DNA from: Fulvivirga imtechensis AK7
GTDB taxonomy: Bacteria; Bacteroidota; Bacteroidia; Cytophagales; Cyclobacteriaceae
DNA length: 64,000 nt
Assembly (NCBI RefSeq): GCF_000331535.1
Contig: NZ_AMZN01000025.1
Location: 1 to 64,000 of the forward strand
Reading direction: 5' to 3'
The notes under the pieces were generated by a model that was not told where the DNA came from, made no database searches, and was given only the letters and a program-made list of their open reading frames with translations. Of the stretch, positions 15,396-27,740 are shown piece after piece. The position numbers and the translations under genes were made by a program. Numbering within the stretch: the first letter of the stretch is position 1; the number at the start of each line of letters is the position of its first letter.

Positions 15396-17279
15396 TTACG
15401 ATAATGCCGGGACCTTCTTTTCAAAAAACTGTTCTAAAAATATTCCAAAGGTTATAACGATGATCAGGAGATCAGTTTCGAACGGAACATTTAGGAAAAA
15501 TCCATCCTGGCTATATTGCTTTTTAAGTCGTTCTATAAGATTTGGGTCAAAAAAACCCTGCCTTTTAATGGTTTCGTAAGAAAGAATATCGTTAATATAT
15601 TCAATATTACGTTGTAATAAATATGGGCTTCCAGGAGCCACGAATCCGAACTTCTCCCTTTCCAGTATCTCTCTTGGCACACTCTTCTCAGCGAGTTTCC
15701 GAAGAATGTACTTCTCCGTGAAATTGTTCAGCTTAAACTTTGAAGGAATTGTGGTAGAAAATTCTACCAGATCTTTATCCAAAAAAGGATACCGTACCTC
15801 TACAGAGTTAGCCATGGCCATACGATCCCCGTGATCCGATATCAGATGATCTACCAACCGAAGTTTGTAATCCATGTAGGATCTTTTATGTAAAGTATCC
15901 CTTTGCAGGAGCTTTTCCTTCTTTATTATAGGATATTCCATACAATTAATATCTTCAAAAAAAGCCCTTAGCTGGTTAGAATACAGACTTTTTTTCAACG
16001 CTGTCAAATCCTGAAGGTTACTTTCATAAAAAAAATCACCATCACCCCACACGTGACGTCTAAGATTGTATTCTTCCTGCGATAGATTATTACTATCAGA
16101 TAATCCCTCCTCCCTCATTTTGTCAAAACGATACCCAACATATCCGGCAAAAAACTCATCCGCTCCCTCACCTGATAGAATCACTTTTAACTGATTATCT
16201 CTCACTGCCTGAGAGAGGTGAAGCGAAGCGGTATTGTAGGTTTCCTTTATTGGGCACTCACAGTGATAAACGGCATCATGTAATCGTTCACTAATGTCAC
16301 TATAGTAAAAAGTCTTCTGGTAGAGGCTGGCATGAGACTTTTCTGCTGCTAAATTTTGATATTTAGCTTCAGAAATTTGGGAATCCGGGAAGTCAATAGA
16401 GAACGCTCTTCTGATACCTTTACCTAAAAATTGGTCCACTTTCATAGCTATCATCGAGCTATCCAGTCCTCCGCTAAGGTAAAAACCTGTGGGGACGTCC
16501 GCTCTAAGACGCAGCTTAACTGCATTCTCAAAATGGTATCCAAGCTCCTCCACATATTCAGCTTCACTCTTAATCTTCACATCATGGTTATGCTGTTCGT
16601 AAGGAAGATCCCAATATTCCATGTCTGTAATTTTCGCCTGGTCATCTACAAGTAAAAAATGACCATTTTCCAAGCTATGAATATTTCGAAACATAGTCCT
16701 GGGGCTTATCAGTCCCGGAAAAGAAATTATTTGGTCAAGTCCTACTAAATCCACCTCGGCAGCAACCAAAGGATGCTCTAATATAGCCTTAATCTCCGAC
16801 CCAAAAATAAAAGTATTTTTTACGAAAGTGTAAAAGAACGGTATTATACCCATTTGATCTCTGGCGCAAAACAGAACATTTCTCTTTTTGTCATAAAGAG
16901 CAAAAGCAAATTGTCCATTAAGATCATTTAAGAAATCTGTACCTTTTTCTTCGTACAAATGAATGATTACTTCTACGTCAGAATCTGTGGTAAATAGATG
17001 ACCTCTTGACTTCAGGTTCTGTTTCAGTTCAATGTAATTAAAGATTTCCCCGTTGCAAATAAGCACAATGTCCTTACTCTCATTGTAGATAGGTTGCATG
17101 CCATTCTCTAAACCAATGATACTCAACCGTGTGAACCCAAAAGCAACATTATCAAACATCAATGTATTTTGAGCATCCGGCCCCCGATGAATAAGTTTAC
17201 TATTCATTTTTTTCAGAACTAGATGATCTTCAAAGGACATTCTATTGCCGTATTTCACGAATCCACATATACCGCACAT
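15396..17279 (-). CDS. asnB: Asparagine synthetase-like glutamine amidotransferase
   Basis: The 627-residue protein has the two-domain plan of class B asparagine synthetases. It starts MCGICGF, so Cys2 would be the nucleophile that releases ammonia from glutamine in the N-terminal domain (to about 220). The C-terminal synthetase domain has the pyrophosphate-binding SGGLDSS near residue 273. These enzymes make an amide from a carboxylate, ATP and glutamine. The length fits the family. It lies in the operon between the oxygenase gene (91 bases upstream) and an NRPS gene (36 bases downstream), so a cluster role is likely. It could supply Asn for the Asn/Asp-type A domain of the last subunit, or amidate the product. 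A housekeeping enzyme carried in the operon cannot be excluded. ATG at 17279. Confidence 0.9.
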   Translation of the reverse strand: MCGICGFVKYGNRMSFEDHLVLKKMNSKLIHRGPDAQNTLMFDNVAFGFTRLSIIGLENGMQPIYNESKDIVLICNGEIFNYIELKQNLKSRGHLFTTDSDVEVIIHLYEEKGTDFLNDLNGQFAFALYDKKRNVLFCARDQMGIIPFFYTFVKNTFIFGSEIKAILEHPLVAAEVDLVGLDQIISFPGLISPRTMFRNIHSLENGHFLLVDDQAKITDMEYWDLPYEQHNHDVKIKSEAEYVEELGYHFENAVKLRLRADVPTGFYLSGGLDSSMIAMKVDQFLGKGIRRAFSIDFPDSQISEAKYQNLAAEKSHASLYQKTFYYSDISERLHDAVYHCECPIKETYNTASLHLSQAVRDNQLKVILSGEGADEFFAGYVGYRFDKMREEGLSDSNNLSQEEYNLRRHVWGDGDFFYESNLQDLTALKKSLYSNQLRAFFEDINCMEYPIIKKEKLLQRDTLHKRSYMDYKLRLVDHLISDHGDRMAMANSVEVRYPFLDKDLVEFSTTIPSKFKLNNFTEKYILRKLAEKSVPREILEREKFGFVAPGSPYLLQRNIEYINDILSYETIKRQGFFDPNLIERLKKQYSQDGFFLNVPFETDLLIIVITFGIFLEQFFEKKVPALS

Positions 17280-17370: not shown

Positions 17371-18357
17371 TTATATTTGAAATTCGCAAGGTTGCGCCAT
17401 AGCTGTAAGAATGGTTCTTTCCCCTTCGAATGGGTTTCTGCCATGAGAAAACATCATGTTATCCAAAAGTAAGAAATCATCTTGTTCCCATTTAAAAACA
17501 ATTGAATTCTTTTCATAAAAATTTCGGAACTCTTGCACCACAGCATCTTCAATGTTGCTGCCATCACCATAGTACGTTACGAATGGTAGGTCTTCCTCAT
17601 TAAAATAATCTAACACCTCTGGATCATAGTGGGCTTTAAAGCCAAAATACAAGTGGTTAAACCACATCTCTTCACCAGTAATTGGGTGATTCTGGACAGC
17701 CGGCAGAACCCAACGCACTCGCAAATGTTCATCACTAAGCCAATCATATTCAAATCCATTTTTTTCCAGATACTGATCAACGGCCTCGCGGTCATCCGTT
17801 TGATAGATGGTTCTCCAATCAAGGCCGACTCCTGGAATGCTATTTCGCAAATACTGAATTTTCTTTTCCCGAAACTTCTGAACGGTTTCTTCTTTTAGGT
17901 TTGTCAGTATCTTTCTCTCATCTGCAATAGGTGTTTCTCCATTAACTGCCGGAGGTATTAGGCAGTAAAAGGCAATGATCCTATTGAAAGCAAGTGAATA
18001 AGAATTTTCCGTATGCATATGGATGACTTGATCTTTAGGATGGCTAGTAGATGTATATACATTATTGTAAACTTGCTCTCGAGGAGATGTGCGGTTCTTA
18101 TATTCCATAGGCTCCCCAAACAAACCCGAAAAAGCTTCATTAAATCCTTCAGCCCCTCCAATATCAAACCCTCGTAAAAGTACTGCACCTTGAGTTAGCA
18201 GGAGTTGATTTATTTGATCTTTGTGGTCTTTTATCCACTCACTACCTATTTTCCCGCTTCTGGGTTTTACCAAAAATGGTTGCTTTTTTGAAGGCATAAA
18301 GATCTCTACCTCTGTGCCCAAATTTACCATACTTTCATGATTGATGAATGTTTCCAT
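17371..18357 (-). CDS. TauD/SyrP-like Fe(II)/2-oxoglutarate-dependent oxygenase
   Basis: The 328-residue protein is a soluble non-heme iron oxygenase of the TauD/TfdA fold, closest in character to SyrP-type hydroxylases that act on carrier-bound amino acids. The iron-binding triad is visible as HTE (HMHTENSY, near residue 112) and a distal His in FSHGRNPF (near 305), followed by an Arg (ERTILTAM) expected to hold 2-oxoglutarate. Length is normal for the family. It sits between the NRPS gene that ends in a C domain (38 bases upstream) and the amidotransferase gene, so hydroxylation of an NRPS building block is the natural reading. SyrP acts on Asp, so the downstream Asn/Asp module or the split module with the unassigned A domain are candidate targets. 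The substrate is inferred. ATG at 18357. Confidence 0.88.
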   Translation of the reverse strand: METFINHESMVNLGTEVEIFMPSKKQPFLVKPRSGKIGSEWIKDHKDQINQLLLTQGAVLLRGFDIGGAEGFNEAFSGLFGEPMEYKNRTSPREQVYNNVYTSTSHPKDQVIHMHTENSYSLAFNRIIAFYCLIPPAVNGETPIADERKILTNLKEETVQKFREKKIQYLRNSIPGVGLDWRTIYQTDDREAVDQYLEKNGFEYDWLSDEHLRVRWVLPAVQNHPITGEEMWFNHLYFGFKAHYDPEVLDYFNEEDLPFVTYYGDGSNIEDAVVQEFRNFYEKNSIVFKWEQDDFLLLDNMMFSHGRNPFEGERTILTAMAQPCEFQI

Positions 18358-18395: not shown

Positions 18396-21300
18396 TTAAA
18401 GGCCTATTAAATCCTTTCCAGCCGGTTCAATATCTATCTTCTCAATTTCAATACTTCTATTTTCTAAAACAGCGCTCACAATGCTCTTGTATGAATCTTT
18501 AAAAATACCTACAGTATCTTCATTATATAATGCTGTATTGTAAATAAATGACACATGAAACTGGTTATTTTGTTCTTCAAAAACCTCAACCTGGAACTCA
18601 TACTCACCAGTGGTTCTCTCTAGCAAGTTCACACTTTTAAATTGCAGGCTCTCAAGCTCACTATCACTATCTAAGGCATTGGAGAAAGCAAAGTGTACGT
18701 CTACAAGTTGGTTCGTATCAGTACTGAGCATCGAAACCATCTGATCGTACGGATAATCCTGATGTTCCAAAGCTTCCAATACGCATTCTTTAACTGCTTT
18801 TAAAAACTCTATGAAATCTTGATTGCTATCTATTTGCATTCTCAATGGTAGGATGTTAATAAAAGTCCCAACGATTTCTTGTAAATCTTTTGATGACCTC
18901 CCTTGTGCATCAGAACCCACGATAATATCTTCATCGCCCGTCACCTTGTGGAGCATGATATAATATACAGCCAGAAAGAACATAAAATCCGATACCCCAG
19001 CCTTTTCGATAAAAATCTTCACTTTGTTATACTGATCATTCTCAAGTTGAAATACGGTAGTGTTCCATATAGATTCCTGCACATTTTCCCGTTCCTGTAG
19101 GATGGGTAAATTCAGCCTATTTAAATTACCTGAGAGTTTTCTAGTCCAAAAATCCTTATGTACCTGCCGACCATCCGTTTGTTCTCTTACCCACACGGCA
19201 AAATCTTTGTATTCATACTCCAATTCATCCAAAACATTTTCATAATACAAGTCTTTTAAGTCCTTTATCAATATATTGATGGATGTACCATCGCAAATGA
19301 TATGATGAATATCGAGAAACAGAAAGGTTTTATCCAACCCACAAACTATTGCTCCACGAATAAGCGGACACATGGATAAATCAAATGGTTTGATAAATTT
19401 GCGAAATGCGATCGCCAATTCCTTTGGACTACTACATGTAATGGATTCCAATGCAAAATCTGCTGTAGGAATTATTTTTTGCACAACACCTTCATCTGAT
19501 AATTCAAAATAGGTTCTAAGTGCTGAGTGTCTGTTAATTAAAGCAATAAAAGCTTTTTCAAGTCGCGCTATATCGATATTCTCACCGAGCTCAAGAGCTT
19601 CATTAATATTGCGCGCCAGGCTATCCTGATTCAGCATATAAGTGTAATACATTCTTTCTTGAGCGGGAGAAGTCGGGTAGAATTCTCTGATCCCTATTTT
19701 TTGTAAAGGTGTTCCATGCTCTGGCTCTGCTTCCTCTATCAACCTGGCTATCGCAACAACCGTATTCTTTTCAAAGATTTTCTTAAGTTCCAATCTTACC
19801 GAAAAAGTCTTCTGTATCTTATTGATCAGTTGAAGTACCCGAATCGATTGACCACCGAGGTCAAAGAAGCTGGCATTTGTACTTATAGCTTCCTCAGACA
19901 CCTTAAGTATTTCCGACCAAATGGTCACAAGCTTTTTCTCAATCTCAGTACCTGCTCCCACATAATCTTCACCGGCGCTAACTTCAGGGTCCGGAAGTTT
20001 CATTTTATTGATTTTCCCGTTGGGTAATAGAGGCAGGTTTTCCAGATATACAAAATGAGCAGGCACCATGTAGTCGGGCAGGTGAGACGATAAATGATCC
20101 TTCAACTCATTAGTATCTAATTCTTTTGCAGCAAGATAATACCCCACCAGGTAAGGGTCCTCGCCCAAAGATTTTGCTATTACAATGGCTTCGTTTACAT
20201 CCTCATGGCTTAATAACTGACTTTCTACCTCCCCAAGTTCTACACGGTTTCCTCGAATTTTTACCTGATTATCTATTCTTCCCATAAACTCTATGTTACC
20301 ATCTGGCAGCCACCTGGCTAAGTCACCGGTACAGTACAATCTCTCTCCTTCACCATAAGGGTTGGCGATAAATTTTTGACTGGTAAGTTCCCGGCTGTTA
20401 AAATATCCAAAAGCCAATGCTTTCCCTGCTACACATAGTTCACCAGCAACACCCACGGGTTGCAATTTTCTATTTCGGTCCAAGATCAGGATTTTGGTAT
20501 TGGCTATGGGTTTACCGATAGGGATTTTTCTTGCCTCATGTTGAATTTCTCCTATAACCTGTTCTTGCTTGTCATCGGGTGTGCCTAATAAGTTGTCCTC
20601 TCCGTAAATTTCTTTGACTATTGCAAGTTGATCTTTTAATACGCATTCCAAATCCTGGTGAGTGGTTAACGGATTTGAGAGTACAGCTCTAAATACAACC
20701 AATTCGCTATTGTTTTTCGCGACTTTTGTTTTAGAGATAAATGTTTTTCCCCTTAGAAATTGTGCCTCCTGTACTCTGGCATTGATCGCATTGATTACAT
20801 CATTTTCACCTTCAGAAAAATTAATTTTGTGACGATATTTCTTAGGTAAATATCGATAGTTGACGATATTAATGTGATTTGAAATAAACTCAAAGCAGTC
20901 TGTCACTTTGATCAGTTCCGAAAGTTTCTGTGCCAAATCAATACCCCGCTCCAACAATAGTCCGTACCCTTTTTTACCCAAAATTTTTAAAGAAGCGTGT
21001 AAACAAAGCGACAAGCCAGGCTTTGAACCTTCCAGTGTAACACGGCCAAAGTCATATGAATCAGCTCTGGCTTGATAGTTCGCCTCAGTGGAATTGTGAT
21101 TGAGTTGATGGGGATCTTTAAATAAACAGATACTTATACCCTGCGGCAGGAAAAGTTGCTTATGACCACAGAATGTGATAGAATCAGCGTGTTCAATGCC
21201 ATCTATCAGACGATAGTACTTTTCCGAAAATTTTAGCAATCCTCCCCAAGCCGCATCCACATGAAAATGAATGTTATTTTTCCGGGCTATCTCTGCCATT

Positions 21301-24300
21301 GCTTTTAAAGGGTCAATAGTTCCGGTCTCCGTGGCACCGGCTATACCTACCAAGCCCACAATCAGCAGGTTCTGTTCTTTACATATGTCTATTTTTTTCT
21401 GAAGATCATCCAGCCTCAATCTACCGCCAGTGTCGCTTTCCACATACAAAATATTCTTTCTACCGAAACCAAGAAATGATGCGGTTTTGCTAAAGGAATA
21501 ATGCATCAATCTAGACCCCAATATCACCATATCTTCATATCCCTTTGATTTGAGTAGGTGATAGATACTTTTATCAGTAGCGTTATCATTTTGATCATAA
21601 AGGAGCTTATTTCTAGCACTCAATATAGCAGACATATTAGCAATGCTGCCCCCACTGGTAATAATGCCAAGGTTGGCGTTTAGCTGCTGGACATACTCGA
21701 GATAAAAATCGTCGGGAAAGTCGTAAAAAATACGATGAAGAATTGCAATGGCCTCTCGCTCCAAAAAGGTAAAGGATTTTGATGTTTCGATCTTCACCAG
21801 ATTTTGATTAAGCTGAGAAACCAACTTACTAATGTCATGTACATAGTCTGGTAATACTGATGTCATATGCCCTATAAACCTTGGGGATGCGGTATTTACA
21901 GAGTAGGGCAGTACATTTGTTTTGAAAGATGCAAAGTATTCCTCTATACTAGTAGGATATTCTGAAACTCTGGTATTTCTGAAATTTCTGGCTACCTCTT
22001 CTAACTTTACATCCGGCAGCGTAATATTATTATCTTCTGACTTATACCCGATACGATGATTTGTAAATAAATTATTAGTCAAATAGCTATACTTTTTAAA
22101 ATATTTCAAGACATCCTCCACATGATACCTTTCCACATTGTAATATGTGGCATCCGCGCTTACCTCTGTTGAACCATAAATATTTACAAGTGTAGCACCG
22201 CTAAACTCTCGGTAAAAGCGTTTGGCCAACTCAAAAGGCAGATACTCTCCGCTACAAAAAACATACTTCAATGAATGACTGGTAAGCTCTTCCTCGCTTT
22301 TTAAGTCAAGTAAGGCCTTAAGGTAGGTCGGCACCAGTGTAATCCTGGTGATTTGTTCCTTAACTATTAAAGAATACGTTTTCTCTACGTCCAGGATCTC
22401 GGTATCATCAAAGATCCTTAAGGTAATACCTGACAATAAGGGAGAAAACACTTCCACCACATGGTCTACAAAACTAATACTAGTCTTAAAACAAAAGACT
22501 TCATTATCAGAAGCTGGATATTGGTTCCAGCCCCAGTATAGTCTGTTTAGTAGCCCCTCGTGAGATCCTCTTACACCCTTTGGCACCCCTGTAGACCCTG
22601 ATGTGTACATCATGTAGATATTCTTAATCAGACAACCCTTGGGGTTAGTTGTATCCAAATGCTCAATTTTCTCTTTTAATATATTATAGTCGTATACAGT
22701 ACAATTTGCATTAAGCGATTTTTTGGACAGAATATTTTCCTTTGACAAAAGTACTTTTGCCTCACTGTCCCTTAAAATATGATTGATCCTCTCATTTGGA
22801 TAGGCTATATCCAATGGCAAATAAGTAGCTCCACTCTTTACAACAGCGAGAATATTGATAATATAATCTATTGATCGCTGCATCATAACACCCACTACGT
22901 CACCATTACCAATCCTGCTTTGTAAAAGATGGTGTGCAAGCTGATTGGTCTTTGAATTTAGATCAGAATAACTAATAGACTCTTCCGCATCATATATAGC
23001 GATTTTTTGGGGTGTATTGGCCACCTGTAGCTCGAACAGGTCGACAATGCTGTGATTCCATGGAAAATCTACAGATGTATTGTTGAATGTGTGAAGCAGG
23101 TCATACCGCTCTTGCTCAGATATCATGTCTATTTCTGACAACTTCACATCATTATTATTTGCTACTACGGCCACTATTTGATGGAAATATGTTATAAACC
23201 GCTCAATAGTTTTACGCTCAAATAAATCAGTAGAATAGTTGAAACTTAAGTGTAATTCTTCTTCAACTTCTCCCGCTATGAGTGTGAGATCAAACATGGC
23301 GGTATGATGCACTTCCTTGTATGGCTTGAGCTTCAGTCCTGGAATAGTTAACTCGTCCTGGTCGAAGTTTTGGAATATAAACATCACATCAAATAATGGG
23401 TTCCTGCTCGTATCTCTTACAATATTTAGTTCTTCAACAAGTTGCTCATATGCAAATGACTGGTGGTCAAAGTAAGCTAAAGTACTATTTTTGACTTCTG
23501 TTAGGAAATCCTTGTAGCTCATCTCATCTCTTGGATAATTTCTCAGTACCAGGGTATTCACGAACATACCCACTATATGTTCCAGATCAACATGGTCTCT
23601 GCCAGCCACAGGTGTACCTACGGTAATATCCCGCTGGTTACTAAGTTTACTTAGCAAGATATTGAAAATGGAAAGTGTTGTCATGAACAAAGTCGCTCCT
23701 ACCTTGTCAGCTATGGCCTTCATCTGGTTAGTTTCTTCCATACTAAGAGTAAAAGACACATGATTTCCTTCAAAACTTGGTGCCCTGGGCCTGGCGAAGT
23801 CTGTAGGCAGGTTCAGCACGCTTACCGCTTCAGAAAATTCCTTCATCCAGAACTCTCTATCATTTTTCAATTTATCTTGTTTCTCATTTTCTTGCTGCCA
23901 TTCTACAAAATCTTTGTATTGTAGTTCAACCTTGGGCAGTTTCTCCCCGTTGTACAAGGCCATAAAGTCGTTGATCAGTATACTTTGCGACACCCCATCG
24001 GTAATGATATGGTGCATGTCGACTATCATAAGATGCGACCCTTTAGATTGTTTGACCAAACCAACCCTTATAAGAGGTGGTTTACTCAGATCAAAAGGTC
24101 TGACAAAAGATTTTATTATGGTGTCTAGATCATCATTCAGAGGCTCATGATATTCTATGAAAAAAGAAAACCCGTCTACTACCTGCTGCACCACCTTTTC
24201 ATTTAATGCTAAAATAGCTGTGCGTAAACTTTCATGCCGCTTTATTAGCTTCTTAAAAGTTTCTTCTACCCTAGCCCTATTCACTTCGCCTTCAAGTGCC

Positions 24301-27300
24301 AGCACTTGGGGCATATTGTAAGCCAGTGAGTTCTTATCGAACTCATATAAAAAATAAAGTCGCTCCTGTACTGAAGAAAGATCATAAAAAGCCTTTTCAG
24401 AAGCTTTTTTGATTGGTTTATATTCTGATTCCCGGGACTGTTGTATGGCTCTGGCTAAGCTGGAGATTGTCTGATACTCTATCAACTGTGCCAGTGTAAA
24501 TTCAGCGCTAAATCCCTGTTTAATTTTGTTGGCCAGAAAAACCAGTCGCAACGAATGCCCTCCCAATTCGAAGAACCTGCTATTTACGCTAATGGTATCC
24601 TTATCCAGTTTCAATACCTCCGACCATATTTGCACTAGTTTTTCTTCAATGTCATTGGATGGAGCGACATATCTACCCTCCTGATTGACATCAATGGTCG
24701 GCAGCGCCTTTTTATCAACCTTGCCATTTACCGTTAGTGGCATTTTTTCCAGGTGAACAAAATATGAGGGTATCATATATTCCGGTAAAATTTCGGCCAT
24801 GTGTTGCCTGAGTTCGGAAATATCAAGTACTACATCGGACACATAGTATCCAACTATAAACTTTTCTTCCGCTAGCTCTTCAAATAGCACAACCGCGTTT
24901 TTTACCAAATGATGAGCGTTAAGCTGCCTTTCGATTTCTGCCACCTCCACACGGTATCCTCTGATCTTTACCTGATGGTCTATGCGTCCTTTGTACTCAA
25001 TATTACCATCAGGTAGCCACTTGGCCAGATCTCCTGTACGGTAAACACGCCGCTCACCCTTAACCCAATCTTCCGGAAATTTGTCAGAAGTTAAGTCAGC
25101 GTCACCCATGTATCTCTGTGCCAAGCCATCCCCTGCAATACAGAGTTCGCCGGTAACCCCGACAGGAACTAAGTTACCATATGCATCGGTAATGTAAATA
25201 CGCTCATTAGGCAGTGGCTTACCAATAGGTATAGTGGTATAATCATTCAATTTTTCAGGATCCACCTTATAGCCAGTTGAATCTACACATGTCTCTGTAG
25301 GCCCGTAGAAGTTATACAGTTGTACTTTAGCATTGTTATTTTTTTCATAAAATTCACTAACCAATTCCTTAGGTAAAAATTCTCCGGCTAGTATCCAACT
25401 ACCCAGAGTTCTCAGGGAATTGTTAGTAGTCAAAGCGCTGGTCAGCAAACGCAAATGGGTAGGAGTACCATCAGAGACATCAATTTTATTTCTGTTGTAA
25501 AAATCTATAAGCCTGTTACCATCTTTACGATCCAAGTCATCACTAATGTAAAGGCTGTGTCCTTGTAATAAAGCCCCTGAAATCTGTTGCATGGAAGCAT
25601 CAAAGGCATAAGAAGCAAGTAGGGCTACGCGCAGCGGCCTGTGAGAATGATTTTTATATACGTTTTGCTCCAGGCCCTTCACCAAATTGATCACACTTCT
25701 ATGCCCAATCATGACTCCTTTCGGCAAGCCTGTGGAACCGGAAGTAAATATGCAGTAAGCCAAATCCGTAGCTTTTATATTTACCCCTACATTTTCTCTT
25801 TCTCCTGCATACAAATCTTCTGAACATATATCTTTCACCGGCAGATACGCCGAATGTTGTTCCATATAGCACTGATTGGAAAGAAGCAGTGTGGCTCTGC
25901 TTTGATCAAGCATGTACTGTACCCGTTGTTCGGGCAGATTGGGATCGATAGGCAAATAACCTGCTCCGGCTTTTAAAGTTCCTATTATGCCCACCATCAT
26001 CTCCAAAGATCGATCCAGCAGTAATCCCACCACACTGCCTGGCACAACACCATACGAAAGCAGATACCGTGCAAGCTGATTGGATCTTTCATTCAATTCT
26101 TTATATGTCATCTGCCGCTCATTATGGATAACGGCAAGACAATCCGGCTGACTCTTTACTTGTTCTTCAAAAAGATCAACAATAGTTTTTTTTCGGGGGT
26201 ATTCCAGCTCAGTAGCATTAAAATCGTTCAAAATTCTGCTACGTTCAGCGTCCGGTAATATGTCTATTTGTGATATCCTCTTGTTAGTATCGGTAATAAT
26301 TTCATGGATAATGCCCTTAAAATAAGTCACGAATCGTTCAATAGTATTTTCTTTAAATAACGCAGTGGAATAATTAAAGGCAAGGTGTAATTTTCCATGT
26401 AACTCCCCTGCCGTAAGGGTTAAATCAAATTTTGTAAAATCGTGGCCATAGTTAAGGGATTTTAGCGAAACCTGAGGGATGAAAAATGCTTCATCAACAT
26501 TTGGATTTTCATACATGAACATTACATCAAATAATGGATGACGGCTGCTATTTCGTCCGATCCTAAGCTCTTTGATTAATTCTTCAAAGGAATATGCCTG
26601 ATTTTCAAAGTATGAAAGTGTCCTTCTCTTCACGTCCTCCAAAAAATCGTTAAAACTAAGATCACCCTTCGGGTAATTGCGAAGGGCGAGCGCATTAATG
26701 AACACACCCATAACGCCTTCTGTGTCTGCGTGATTTCTCCCGGTCACTTGAGTGCCCACAGTTATATCTTCCTGGCTGCTCAGCTTACTCAGCAGCACAT
26801 TGAAGAGGGAGAGTACTGTCATGAACATTGTGGCTCCAGCCTTCTCGCTTATTTGCCTTATTCTCTTAGTTTCCTCTTTTCCAATTGTAAAGGTTGTTGT
26901 ACTCCCTTTGTAACTCTTTACTTGTGGACGCGGATAATCTGTTGGAAGATCCAACAGACTTACCTCCTCTGAAAACTGCTCCTTCCAAAACTTCTGCTGG
27001 CTGGCTAACCGCGCCTGCTGGTCGGCACTTTGCTGCCATTCCGCATAGTCCTTATATTGAATTGGCAATGGTGAAAGTTGCTCATCATTGTACAAAGACA
27101 TGAAATCTTTGATCATTATAGTTTGGGATATACCATCAGTAATGATGTGATGCATATCTATCATTAGTATATGCGACCTTTCTGATAATTTTATCAGACC
27201 GACACGTATTAGAGGCCCCTCACTTAAGTTGAAGGGTCTGATAAATGCTTGAATCAAAGGAACTATATCCGATTGGTTTGTTTCGATGTATTCGATAAAG

Positions 27301-27740
27301 AAATTAACATTATCTAATACCTGCTGAAATTGTTCATTTTCTACGGTTATTATCCTCGTTCGCAGGCTTTCATGACGATCTATGAGTTTTATAAATGTCT
27401 CTTCTACCTTTTCTTTGTTCACTTCCCCTTCCAACTCCACCACTTCCGGAATGTTGTAGGCAAGTGATGATTTATCCAACTCATACTGATAATACATTCT
27501 TCGCTGTGCGGAGGATAGTGTATAATAGCTTTTTTCAAGCGCCTTATCAATAGCAAATGAGCCATTCAACAGGACCTTTCTTTCATGGATATAAGCTATC
27601 AATGCCTCCTTGTTTGCTTTAACCTCTTCTATAATGTCGTTACTTGCAATACCCTTGGGCACTTCAAGTTTCAGGTTATTATCATCATCTATCCTGATGC
27701 TTACCTTGTTCTCTTTCAACCTGGCTAGTAGTTTTTCCAT
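18396..27740 (-). CDS. NRPS docking-C-A-PCP-C-A(with internal PLP decarboxylase)-PCP-C
   Basis: This 3114-residue synthetase opens with a TubC-like docking domain (1-55). It continues C1 70-500 (HHIITDG near 200), A1 510-1030 (FTSGSTGLPKG near 668, NFYGPTE near 813), PCP1 (GGHSLRL near 1058), C2 1117-1560 (HHIITDG near 1245), A2 1570-2590, PCP2 (GGQSIRV near 2631) and a final C3 2690-3110 (HHIICDG near 2820). A1 code DAQDIAFVDK is Gln/Glu-like. A2 is interrupted: motifs up to NIYGSTE (about 1856) and from IPIGKP (about 2405) are normal, but residues 1870-2404 form a PanP-type decarboxylase. The A2 code VDVTFSIADK resembles beta-alanine signatures, lacking the usual Asp235 and having Asp236. 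The terminal C3 has no A domain after it; the A domain starts the gene at 15359, two genes on. The frame is continuous throughout, so the fusion is not a frameshift product. Confidence 0.96.
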   Translation of the reverse strand: MEKLLARLKENKVSIRIDDDNNLKLEVPKGIASNDIIEEVKANKEALIAYIHERKVLLNGSFAIDKALEKSYYTLSSAQRRMYYQYELDKSSLAYNIPEVVELEGEVNKEKVEETFIKLIDRHESLRTRIITVENEQFQQVLDNVNFFIEYIETNQSDIVPLIQAFIRPFNLSEGPLIRVGLIKLSERSHILMIDMHHIITDGISQTIMIKDFMSLYNDEQLSPLPIQYKDYAEWQQSADQQARLASQQKFWKEQFSEEVSLLDLPTDYPRPQVKSYKGSTTTFTIGKEETKRIRQISEKAGATMFMTVLSLFNVLLSKLSSQEDITVGTQVTGRNHADTEGVMGVFINALALRNYPKGDLSFNDFLEDVKRRTLSYFENQAYSFEELIKELRIGRNSSRHPLFDVMFMYENPNVDEAFFIPQVSLKSLNYGHDFTKFDLTLTAGELHGKLHLAFNYSTALFKENTIERFVTYFKGIIHEIITDTNKRISQIDILPDAERSRILNDFNATELEYPRKKTIVDLFEEQVKSQPDCLAVIHNERQMTYKELNERSNQLARYLLSYGVVPGSVVGLLLDRSLEMMVGIIGTLKAGAGYLPIDPNLPEQRVQYMLDQSRATLLLSNQCYMEQHSAYLPVKDICSEDLYAGERENVGVNIKATDLAYCIFTSGSTGLPKGVMIGHRSVINLVKGLEQNVYKNHSHRPLRVALLASYAFDASMQQISGALLQGHSLYISDDLDRKDGNRLIDFYNRNKIDVSDGTPTHLRLLTSALTTNNSLRTLGSWILAGEFLPKELVSEFYEKNNNAKVQLYNFYGPTETCVDSTGYKVDPEKLNDYTTIPIGKPLPNERIYITDAYGNLVPVGVTGELCIAGDGLAQRYMGDADLTSDKFPEDWVKGERRVYRTGDLAKWLPDGNIEYKGRIDHQVKIRGYRVEVAEIERQLNAHHLVKNAVVLFEELAEEKFIVGYYVSDVVLDISELRQHMAEILPEYMIPSYFVHLEKMPLTVNGKVDKKALPTIDVNQEGRYVAPSNDIEEKLVQIWSEVLKLDKDTISVNSRFFELGGHSLRLVFLANKIKQGFSAEFTLAQLIEYQTISSLARAIQQSRESEYKPIKKASEKAFYDLSSVQERLYFLYEFDKNSLAYNMPQVLALEGEVNRARVEETFKKLIKRHESLRTAILALNEKVVQQVVDGFSFFIEYHEPLNDDLDTIIKSFVRPFDLSKPPLIRVGLVKQSKGSHLMIVDMHHIITDGVSQSILINDFMALYNGEKLPKVELQYKDFVEWQQENEKQDKLKNDREFWMKEFSEAVSVLNLPTDFARPRAPSFEGNHVSFTLSMEETNQMKAIADKVGATLFMTTLSIFNILLSKLSNQRDITVGTPVAGRDHVDLEHIVGMFVNTLVLRNYPRDEMSYKDFLTEVKNSTLAYFDHQSFAYEQLVEELNIVRDTSRNPLFDVMFIFQNFDQDELTIPGLKLKPYKEVHHTAMFDLTLIAGEVEEELHLSFNYSTDLFERKTIERFITYFHQIVAVVANNNDVKLSEIDMISEQERYDLLHTFNNTSVDFPWNHSIVDLFELQVANTPQKIAIYDAEESISYSDLNSKTNQLAHHLLQSRIGNGDVVGVMMQRSIDYIINILAVVKSGATYLPLDIAYPNERINHILRDSEAKVLLSKENILSKKSLNANCTVYDYNILKEKIEHLDTTNPKGCLIKNIYMMYTSGSTGVPKGVRGSHEGLLNRLYWGWNQYPASDNEVFCFKTSISFVDHVVEVFSPLLSGITLRIFDDTEILDVEKTYSLIVKEQITRITLVPTYLKALLDLKSEEELTSHSLKYVFCSGEYLPFELAKRFYREFSGATLVNIYGSTEVSADATYYNVERYHVEDVLKYFKKYSYLTNNLFTNHRIGYKSEDNNITLPDVKLEEVARNFRNTRVSEYPTSIEEYFASFKTNVLPYSVNTASPRFIGHMTSVLPDYVHDISKLVSQLNQNLVKIETSKSFTFLEREAIAILHRIFYDFPDDFYLEYVQQLNANLGIITSGGSIANMSAILSARNKLLYDQNDNATDKSIYHLLKSKGYEDMVILGSRLMHYSFSKTASFLGFGRKNILYVESDTGGRLRLDDLQKKIDICKEQNLLIVGLVGIAGATETGTIDPLKAMAEIARKNNIHFHVDAAWGGLLKFSEKYYRLIDGIEHADSITFCGHKQLFLPQGISICLFKDPHQLNHNSTEANYQARADSYDFGRVTLEGSKPGLSLCLHASLKILGKKGYGLLLERGIDLAQKLSELIKVTDCFEFISNHINIVNYRYLPKKYRHKINFSEGENDVINAINARVQEAQFLRGKTFISKTKVAKNNSELVVFRAVLSNPLTTHQDLECVLKDQLAIVKEIYGEDNLLGTPDDKQEQVIGEIQHEARKIPIGKPIANTKILILDRNRKLQPVGVAGELCVAGKALAFGYFNSRELTSQKFIANPYGEGERLYCTGDLARWLPDGNIEFMGRIDNQVKIRGNRVELGEVESQLLSHEDVNEAIVIAKSLGEDPYLVGYYLAAKELDTNELKDHLSSHLPDYMVPAHFVYLENLPLLPNGKINKMKLPDPEVSAGEDYVGAGTEIEKKLVTIWSEILKVSEEAISTNASFFDLGGQSIRVLQLINKIQKTFSVRLELKKIFEKNTVVAIARLIEEAEPEHGTPLQKIGIREFYPTSPAQERMYYTYMLNQDSLARNINEALELGENIDIARLEKAFIALINRHSALRTYFELSDEGVVQKIIPTADFALESITCSSPKELAIAFRKFIKPFDLSMCPLIRGAIVCGLDKTFLFLDIHHIICDGTSINILIKDLKDLYYENVLDELEYEYKDFAVWVREQTDGRQVHKDFWTRKLSGNLNRLNLPILQERENVQESIWNTTVFQLENDQYNKVKIFIEKAGVSDFMFFLAVYYIMLHKVTGDEDIIVGSDAQGRSSKDLQEIVGTFINILPLRMQIDSNQDFIEFLKAVKECVLEALEHQDYPYDQMVSMLSTDTNQLVDVHFAFSNALDSDSELESLQFKSVNLLERTTGEYEFQVEVFEEQNNQFHVSFIYNTALYNEDTVGIFKDSYKSIVSAVLENRSIEIEKIDIEPAGKDLIGL
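20529..22133 (-). other. PanP-type PLP-dependent decarboxylase domain inserted in an adenylation domain
   Basis: About 535 residues (1870-2404 of the NRPS) match no A-domain sequence. They read as a group II PLP-dependent decarboxylase, most like PanP, the PLP-dependent aspartate 1-decarboxylase that makes beta-alanine. Visible motifs: PYSVNTASPRFIGHMTS, NQNLVKIETSKSFT, MHYSFSKTASFLG (His expected to stack on PLP), TGTIDPL, HVDAAWGG with Asp2162 expected to pair with the PLP ring nitrogen, and CGHKQLFLPQG with Lys2194 as the Schiff-base lysine. The length is about that of a free-standing PanP, so the whole enzyme appears present. It is bounded by A5 (NIYGSTE...YYNV) and A6 (IPIGKPIANTKILILD). 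Seen: position, motifs, open frame. Inferred: aspartate as substrate. Confidence 0.92.
27575..27740 (-). other. TubC-like N-terminal docking domain
   Basis: The first 55 residues of the NRPS (MEKLLARLKENKVSIRI at the start, then a LEVPKG turn and a helix ending AYIHER) have the size and pattern of TubC-type docking domains that precede C domains and bind the tail of the upstream subunit. The upstream hybrid subunit ends in a polar tail after its PCP that could be the partner. No other subunit start visible in the window carries this domain. Confidence 0.75.

Follow-up and report, generated by a model that had tools for sequence, protein, structure and literature searches.

The 64,000-nucleotide stretch analysed here (the window; positions 1 to 64,000 of contig NZ_AMZN01000025.1 of Fulvivirga imtechensis AK7) covers a portion of a large minus-strand polyketide synthase/nonribosomal peptide synthetase (PKS/NRPS) cluster on a 99.8-kb contig. 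An open reading frame (ORF) at positions 18396-27740 of the minus strand, which runs for 3114 codons without a stop, encodes a 3114-residue NRPS in which a pyridoxal 5′-phosphate (PLP)-dependent decarboxylase is embedded in an adenylation (A) domain, between the core motifs A5 and A6. Pfam recognised three condensation (C) stretches, two A domains (seen as three AMP-binding stretches), two carrier (T) domains and one Pyridoxal_deC domain in this ORF; a TubC_N-like docking region scored 25.7 bits, slightly below the cut-off of 26.

An earlier note on this DNA had described a complete PLP decarboxylase between A5 and A6, in a frame open on both sides, and both points are borne out. The A5 motif NIYGSTE starts at residue 1853, HVDAAWGG at 2160, CGHKQLFLPQG at 2191 and the A6 motif IPIGKP at 2406, the residue numbers given for these motifs in the note being correct to within a few residues. 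The aligned A5 and A6 points are separated by 537 residues, compared to 9-11 residues in nine of the ten uninterrupted A domains aligned and 19 residues in the tenth (L028:3274-4773). In an alignment to LgrA (6mfy, first A domain), the sequences on either side of the insert match at query positions 5-309 and 837-1026 of 1028. As had been anticipated, the AlphaFold model rebuilds a complete A domain around the insert, with a decarboxylase fold between the two parts. In the two best rows of the structure comparison the A domain was fitted across the insert at 1.4-1.6 angstrom over 400-468 residues; the 50 matches listed by VIA-align were adenylating-enzyme chains only, and the decarboxylase part was identified by Foldseek and by sequence. 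The catalytic residues of the A domain (Lys1721, Glu1859, Asp2473 and Lys2576) are retained. An auxiliary domain lies inside, and both outer parts belong to a single predicted A fold, as in an interrupted A domain. The anatomy, a decarboxylase inside an A domain between A5 and A6, is real, well supported and confirmed. The base composition of the insert gave no sign of foreign origin (GC content 0.382, compared to 0.396 for the whole ORF).

The PF00282 profile matches residues 1922-2292 at 157.6 bits (E 4.9e-46), above its cut-off of 27. Among curated NCBIfam families, the nearest to the insert is TIGR03799 (PanP, aspartate 1-decarboxylase), at 474.6 bits and over positions 42-522 of a 522-position profile (481 positions); the second best, a diaminobutyrate decarboxylase, reaches 129.7 bits. 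All 12 inserts and all 18 stand-alone rows aligned agree at Lys2194, Asp2162, His2080 and Arg2351, so that the insert shares its catalytic positions with stand-alone relatives. We take Lys2194 to be the Schiff-base lysine and Asp2162 the partner of PLP N1, while His2080 presumably stacks on PLP and Arg2351 presumably serves the substrate carboxylate. The designation "PanP-type" held only in part: PanP is the nearest curated family, but the insert falls below the curated cut-off (474.6 versus 606.1 bits) and is therefore no PanP equivalog. Seven stand-alone relatives were also scanned. Five of them, at 607-956 bits, exceed the cut-off (two cyanobacterial proteins and one from Ruminiclostridium at 607-628, two gammaproteobacterial ones at 940-956), and L150 and L034 score 519 and 495. 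Judged by sequence, the embedded copies are a sister group of PanP outside the curated family; unlike PanP, the window insert sits within an A domain and groups apart, together with four stand-alone proteins.

The earlier note had proposed a search for other A5-A6 insertions, and this was productive: the same insertion, at the same site and with the key residues retained, is present in 11 further loci, giving 12 distinct cases with the window. Of the matches listed by a family search of 196 genomes, two are embedded: that of the window itself and that of genome G160, whose locus L008 is the same contig stretch of Chryseosolibacter histidini as L028. A pattern-based scan of contigs of 84,980 species, with these two inserts as the query, gave 203 relatives, and the best 80 of these comprised 7 embedded and 73 stand-alone copies. 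The seven come from a Cytophagales metagenome-assembled genome (MAG), from C. histidini and from MAGs labelled Fibrobacter, SAR324, Parabeggiatoa, Cloacimonetes and Thiomargarita. Four more embedded copies, three with a whole A domain plus L149, were found in 388 genomes of one cyanobacterial order. No embedded case was found at E 1e-50 in a sample of 386 cyanobacterial genomes. The class to which the window belongs, searched in 295 genomes, yielded no case besides that of the window, and no new one appeared in 42 genomes of the order of G200 (G200 alone), in 52 genomes of the phylum of G199 (seven matches, embedded in G199 only) or in two smaller searches of 27 and 4 genomes. The 404 plasmid records that match the insert are all under 60% identical to it. 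In nine of the 12 loci the A domain is whole. The inserts of L031 and L032 are 84.7% identical, yet they are filed under different phyla, which makes the phylum labels of single MAG contigs unsafe. The cyanobacterial L149:6548-13903 has its NRPS and the following PKS genes in several overlapping frames and has the look of a cluster in decay or of a low-quality assembly. Separately, Pyridoxal_deC-like matches in open frames of 652-832 amino acids (G027:C20, G059:C104, G133:C100 and G098:C9) are perhaps other fusions.

At the specificity positions, the A domain of the window reads VDVTFSIAD(K) by alignment, the tenth residue being an assumed Lys, and all 12 host A domains carry [VI]D...S.AD at these positions. 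We take the beta-alanine code to be VDWVISLADK, and hence the signature of the host A domains to be of beta-alanine type. A tree was built from the N-terminal parts of 74 A domains: 12 interrupted, 21 uninterrupted of the [VI]D...S.AD kind and 41 others. Rows shorter than 230 residues were dropped, others from outside the window were thinned to one per signature, and the root is arbitrary. All 33 A domains of the [VI]D...S.AD kind lie on one side of a branch with an SH-like approximate likelihood ratio test (SH-aLRT) value of 100. Among these 33, the 12 interrupted domains and one uninterrupted C. histidini domain form a group (91) beside 20 uninterrupted cyanobacterial domains (99), and the host A domain of the window thus groups with domains of the VDWVVSLADK type. 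The uninterrupted C. histidini domain (L028:3274-4773) is a second A domain with the signature VDATFSIADK and lies in the frame just upstream of the interrupted one; its 19 residues at the insertion point, as opposed to 9-11, may reflect loss of an insert.

The same two activities probably also occur as two neighbouring genes rather than as one polypeptide. Of the 73 stand-alone loci, 39 have some NRPS A domain nearby and 13 have one of the [VI]D...S.AD signature (40 and 13 of 104 when loci with only 1.5 kb of flank are included). In 11 of the 13, all cyanobacterial (e.g., L043, L045 and L055), the frame of an uninterrupted signature-bearing NRPS module ends 18-169 bases before the PanP open frame, with frames measured from stop to stop. 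L055, the sole one of these 11 that was scanned, exceeds the PanP cut-off.

We consider it fairly likely that the interrupted module supplies itself with beta-alanine. The embedded domain, with PLP, would remove the alpha-carboxylate from free L-aspartate, and the beta-alanine made beside the A domain would be adenylated by it and loaded onto the T domain that follows. This reading draws on PanP as the nearest curated family, on the invariant catalytic residues, on the common signature and tree grouping of the host A domains, on the A-domain fold predicted around the insert and on the occurrence of the pair as separate genes, as well as on the low ratio of nonsynonymous to synonymous substitution rates (dN/dS) of the insert, which is 0.08, 0.15 and 0.15 in three close pairs, one containing the broken L149. 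The genome of the window also has panD elsewhere, so its pantothenate need not depend on the insert, which is probably dedicated to the product of the cluster. Overall, panD was found in 7 of 11 host genomes searched (8 of 14 genomes searched in all). Group II (fold-I) PLP decarboxylases are obligate dimers, and two NRPS chains may therefore be paired.

Several observations weigh against a self-supplying beta-alanine module. Three other embedded copies scanned with TIGR03799 scored 502.8-523.5 bits, again below 606.1, and with all scanned inserts under the PanP cut-off the substrate could have shifted. No paper giving beta-alanine code strings was found in the open-access literature. An A domain of this signature is absent from the DNA covered at 60 of the 73 stand-alone loci, and several cyanobacterial loci have, closest upstream of PanP, an A domain with a different signature; the association therefore does not hold throughout. 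In three of the 12 loci the A domain is incomplete (L031 is truncated by the contig end, the L032 ORF stops inside the C-terminal part and the L149 ORF stops soon after the insert). The ORFs L028:8240-12193 and L029:7646-12235 stop right behind the interrupted A domain and lack a T domain, which makes loading in cis impossible in these two. No panD was found in 4 of the 11 host genomes (G198-G201, all MAGs); in these, pantothenate synthesis could also draw on the insert, unless the MAGs are incomplete. Finally, NRPSs are mostly monomeric, and an obligate decarboxylase dimer sits awkwardly with that.

The scores below the PanP cut-off would also suit an active group II decarboxylase with a different amino acid as its substrate (glutamate, cysteine sulfinate or 2,4-diaminobutyrate) in an A domain that uses the corresponding amine, and the solved structures closest to the insert by sequence are bacterial Pyridoxal_deC enzymes and human glutamate decarboxylase (GAD). 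Yet no other curated family comes near, the runner-up standing at 129.7 bits, and in the A-domain tree the hosts fall together with A domains that adjoin stand-alone PanP genes; we regard a different substrate as unlikely.

Decarboxylation could instead take place on the assembly line, if the A domain loaded aspartate via its beta-carboxylate and the insert converted the carrier-bound beta-aspartyl thioester to a beta-alanyl thioester. The methyltransferases of other interrupted A domains, which act on the loaded amino acid, offer an analogy: for the interrupted A domains of thiocoraline, methylation is described as probably taking place on the T-attached amino acid (PMC8949500). In the window, a T domain does come after the insert-bearing A domain. 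On the other hand, the identical type of signature occurs in uninterrupted A domains that adjoin a stand-alone PanP gene, 2 of the 12 hosts have no T domain in cis, and PanP works on free aspartate. An on-line reaction therefore seems to us quite unlikely.

That catalysis has been lost and the insert merely dimerises two NRPS chains would agree with the dimeric state of fold-I decarboxylases, but is hard to reconcile with catalytic positions retained in 12 of 12 inserts and with the low dN/dS in three pairs, and we hold it to be very improbable. An assembly or binning artefact can be practically dismissed: the window does come from a 225-contig draft, several relatives are MAGs, and one of L031 and L032 may be misbinned given the 84.7% identity of their inserts across phyla, but site, signature and frame are common to 12 loci, including the strain record C. 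histidini PWU4. The same junctions in 11 other loci mean that neither chance nor misassembly accounts for the insertion itself, and the misassembly that the earlier note had named as a way to overturn its claim is refuted.

In a tree built from 34 decarboxylase sequences (22 selected stand-alone ones besides the 12 embedded), the embedded copies and four stand-alone proteins form one group (100/98), and a wider quick tree of 66 rows agrees. Two of the four, L150 and L151, sit with the embedded copies from cyanobacteria (100/99). The approximately unbiased (AU) test accordingly rejects strict monophyly of the embedded copies alone (p 1.7e-6), since L150 and L151 nest with the cyanobacterial ones, but does not reject that of the embedded copies together with L150 and L151 (p 0.118). 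The placement of L009 and L034, both on long branches, is unsure, and the order at the base of the tree is weak. The tree demands three changes between embedded and stand-alone states, which may be one gain and two losses; repeated insertion would be compatible as well. L150 and L151 lie on short contigs without any NRPS hit, beside a gene that we take to be gpsA, and may represent escape of the domain as a free enzyme. A role for them as a replacement of PanD is unsupported: panD was not seen in G790 but is present in G810. The grouping of the interrupted A domains favours a single insertion, and one insertion with later escape is the simplest account of the trees and the one that we favour; a beta-alanine-type A domain probably acquired the insert a single time, after which the fused unit passed between distant bacteria. 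A more far-reaching scenario is tentative and, in our view, less probable than its opposite. In it, a single ancient PanP-like insertion would have created a make-and-load unit in which the obligate decarboxylase dimer forces the synthetase to dimerise and beta-alanine is handed over locally. The unit would have spread over several phyla and been undone twice, by loss of the insert in the second beta-alanine-type module of C. histidini and by escape in the cyanobacterial L150 and L151.

The features of the NRPS ORF and of its neighbours are collected in Table 1. Homologues of the TauD-family dioxygenase (30-38% identity) are also found near the interrupted NRPS in L146, L147 and L028, and the enzyme might hydroxylate the beta-alanine unit. 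Further along the contig, at about 71.4-76.9 kb and outside the window (L130:11364-16897), lie an SbnA-like gene (381.8 bits, above the cut-off), an SbnB-like gene (294.4, below the cut-off of 326.9), an ornithine-carbamoyltransferase-like gene (273, below the cut-off), another TauD homologue, 33% identical to that next to the NRPS, and a gene with a weak beta-lactamase/PBP4B-like match. By homology, this set points to 2,3-diaminopropionate, perhaps in ureido form, as a unit of the same product.

Table 1. Features of the interrupted NRPS and adjoining genes (positions in the window).
Feature	Position	Strand	Basis
NRPS ORF, 3114 aa: TubC_N-like docking, C-A-T, C-(A with decarboxylase insert)-T, C	18396..27740	-	ORF reading and Pfam
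Interrupted A domain, N-terminal part, motifs through A5, residues 1563-1869	22134..23054	-	alignment, structure comparison
SFVDHVVEVF specificity region in the N-terminal part of the A domain	22446-22475	-	alignment-derived signature
Embedded PLP decarboxylase, residues 1870-2404	20529..22133	-	Pfam, NCBIfam, sequence and Foldseek comparison
PF00282 core match, residues 1922-2292	20865..21977	-	Pfam
His2080	21501..21503	-	aligned with GAD65
Asp2162 of HVDAAWGG	21255..21257	-	motif and alignment
Lys2194	21159..21161	-	motif and alignment
Arg2351 of VFRAVLSNP	20688..20690	-	aligned with Arg of GAD65
Interrupted A domain, C-terminal part, A6-A10, residues 2405-2590, Asp2473 and Lys2576 retained	19971..20528	-	alignment, structure comparison
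T domain after the interrupted A domain (approximate limits), around GGQS at residue 2629	19746..19940	-	motif and Pfam
TauD-family dioxygenase, next gene downstream of the interrupted NRPS	17371..18357	-	homology
Asparagine-synthase-like amidotransferase, same cluster	15396..17279	-	homology

The JamL module of jamaicamide biosynthesis takes beta-alanine. The earlier note had claimed a new class of interrupted A domain, and here it has to give way, since a case has been in print since 2013: Milano et al. record two assembly-line Pyridoxal_deC domains, of which one, with unclarified function, lies "embedded within the adenylation domain" of JamL, the jamaicamide synthase of Lyngbya majuscula (Q6E7J8) (PMC3870968). 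Apart from the exact position of the insert in JamL, this is the kind of published case that the earlier note itself had named as refuting novelty. As in the window, Pyridoxal_deC there lies inside an NRPS A domain, and the Pfam layout of JamL, given as A-PLP4-A within a PKS/NRPS line, points to an insertion within PF00501, which is where Pyridoxal_deC is found in the window (PMC3870968). Unlike the NRPS of the window, JamL is a KS-AT-...-C-A-CP protein, and the two are likened by domain layout. The JamL sequence was not recognised in the 386 Cyanobacteriota genomes, the 388 genomes of one order or the sets of 27 and 4, the two large searches having scored three candidates per genome.

In interrupted A domains described elsewhere, auxiliary enzymes generally lie between a8 and a9, exceptionally between a2 and a3, according to the accessible part of PMC8949500, in which the word "decarboxylase" does not occur. 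The window likewise embeds an auxiliary enzyme, but its site is A5-A6 and its insert would make the substrate rather than modify it. The beta-alanine A domain of the kasumigamide synthetase MakasB, which activates beta-alanine in vitro, was considered as another interrupted case and rejected, since its C-A-T construct of 118.6 kDa is too small for such an insert (PMC5061366); judged by this size, it is uninterrupted, in contrast to that of the window. In work on DVU0867, a PLP-dependent decarboxylase with a distant relationship to PanP complemented a panD mutant of E. coli (PMC10102598).

Judged against the open-access literature, what is new is the A5-A6 site, the spread over several phyla, the apparently single origin, the likely function and the possible re-excision. 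The finding bears on the function left open in 2013 for the embedded decarboxylase of JamL, which would be the supply of beta-alanine in place, and it provides a genome-mining signature for beta-alanine modules. The A5-A6 loop is a natural site that tolerates a domain of ~530 residues, which makes it useful for engineering. The fused and neighbouring-gene arrangements form a natural cis/trans pair, with which local supply and the effect of a dimeric decarboxylase on NRPS architecture may be tested.

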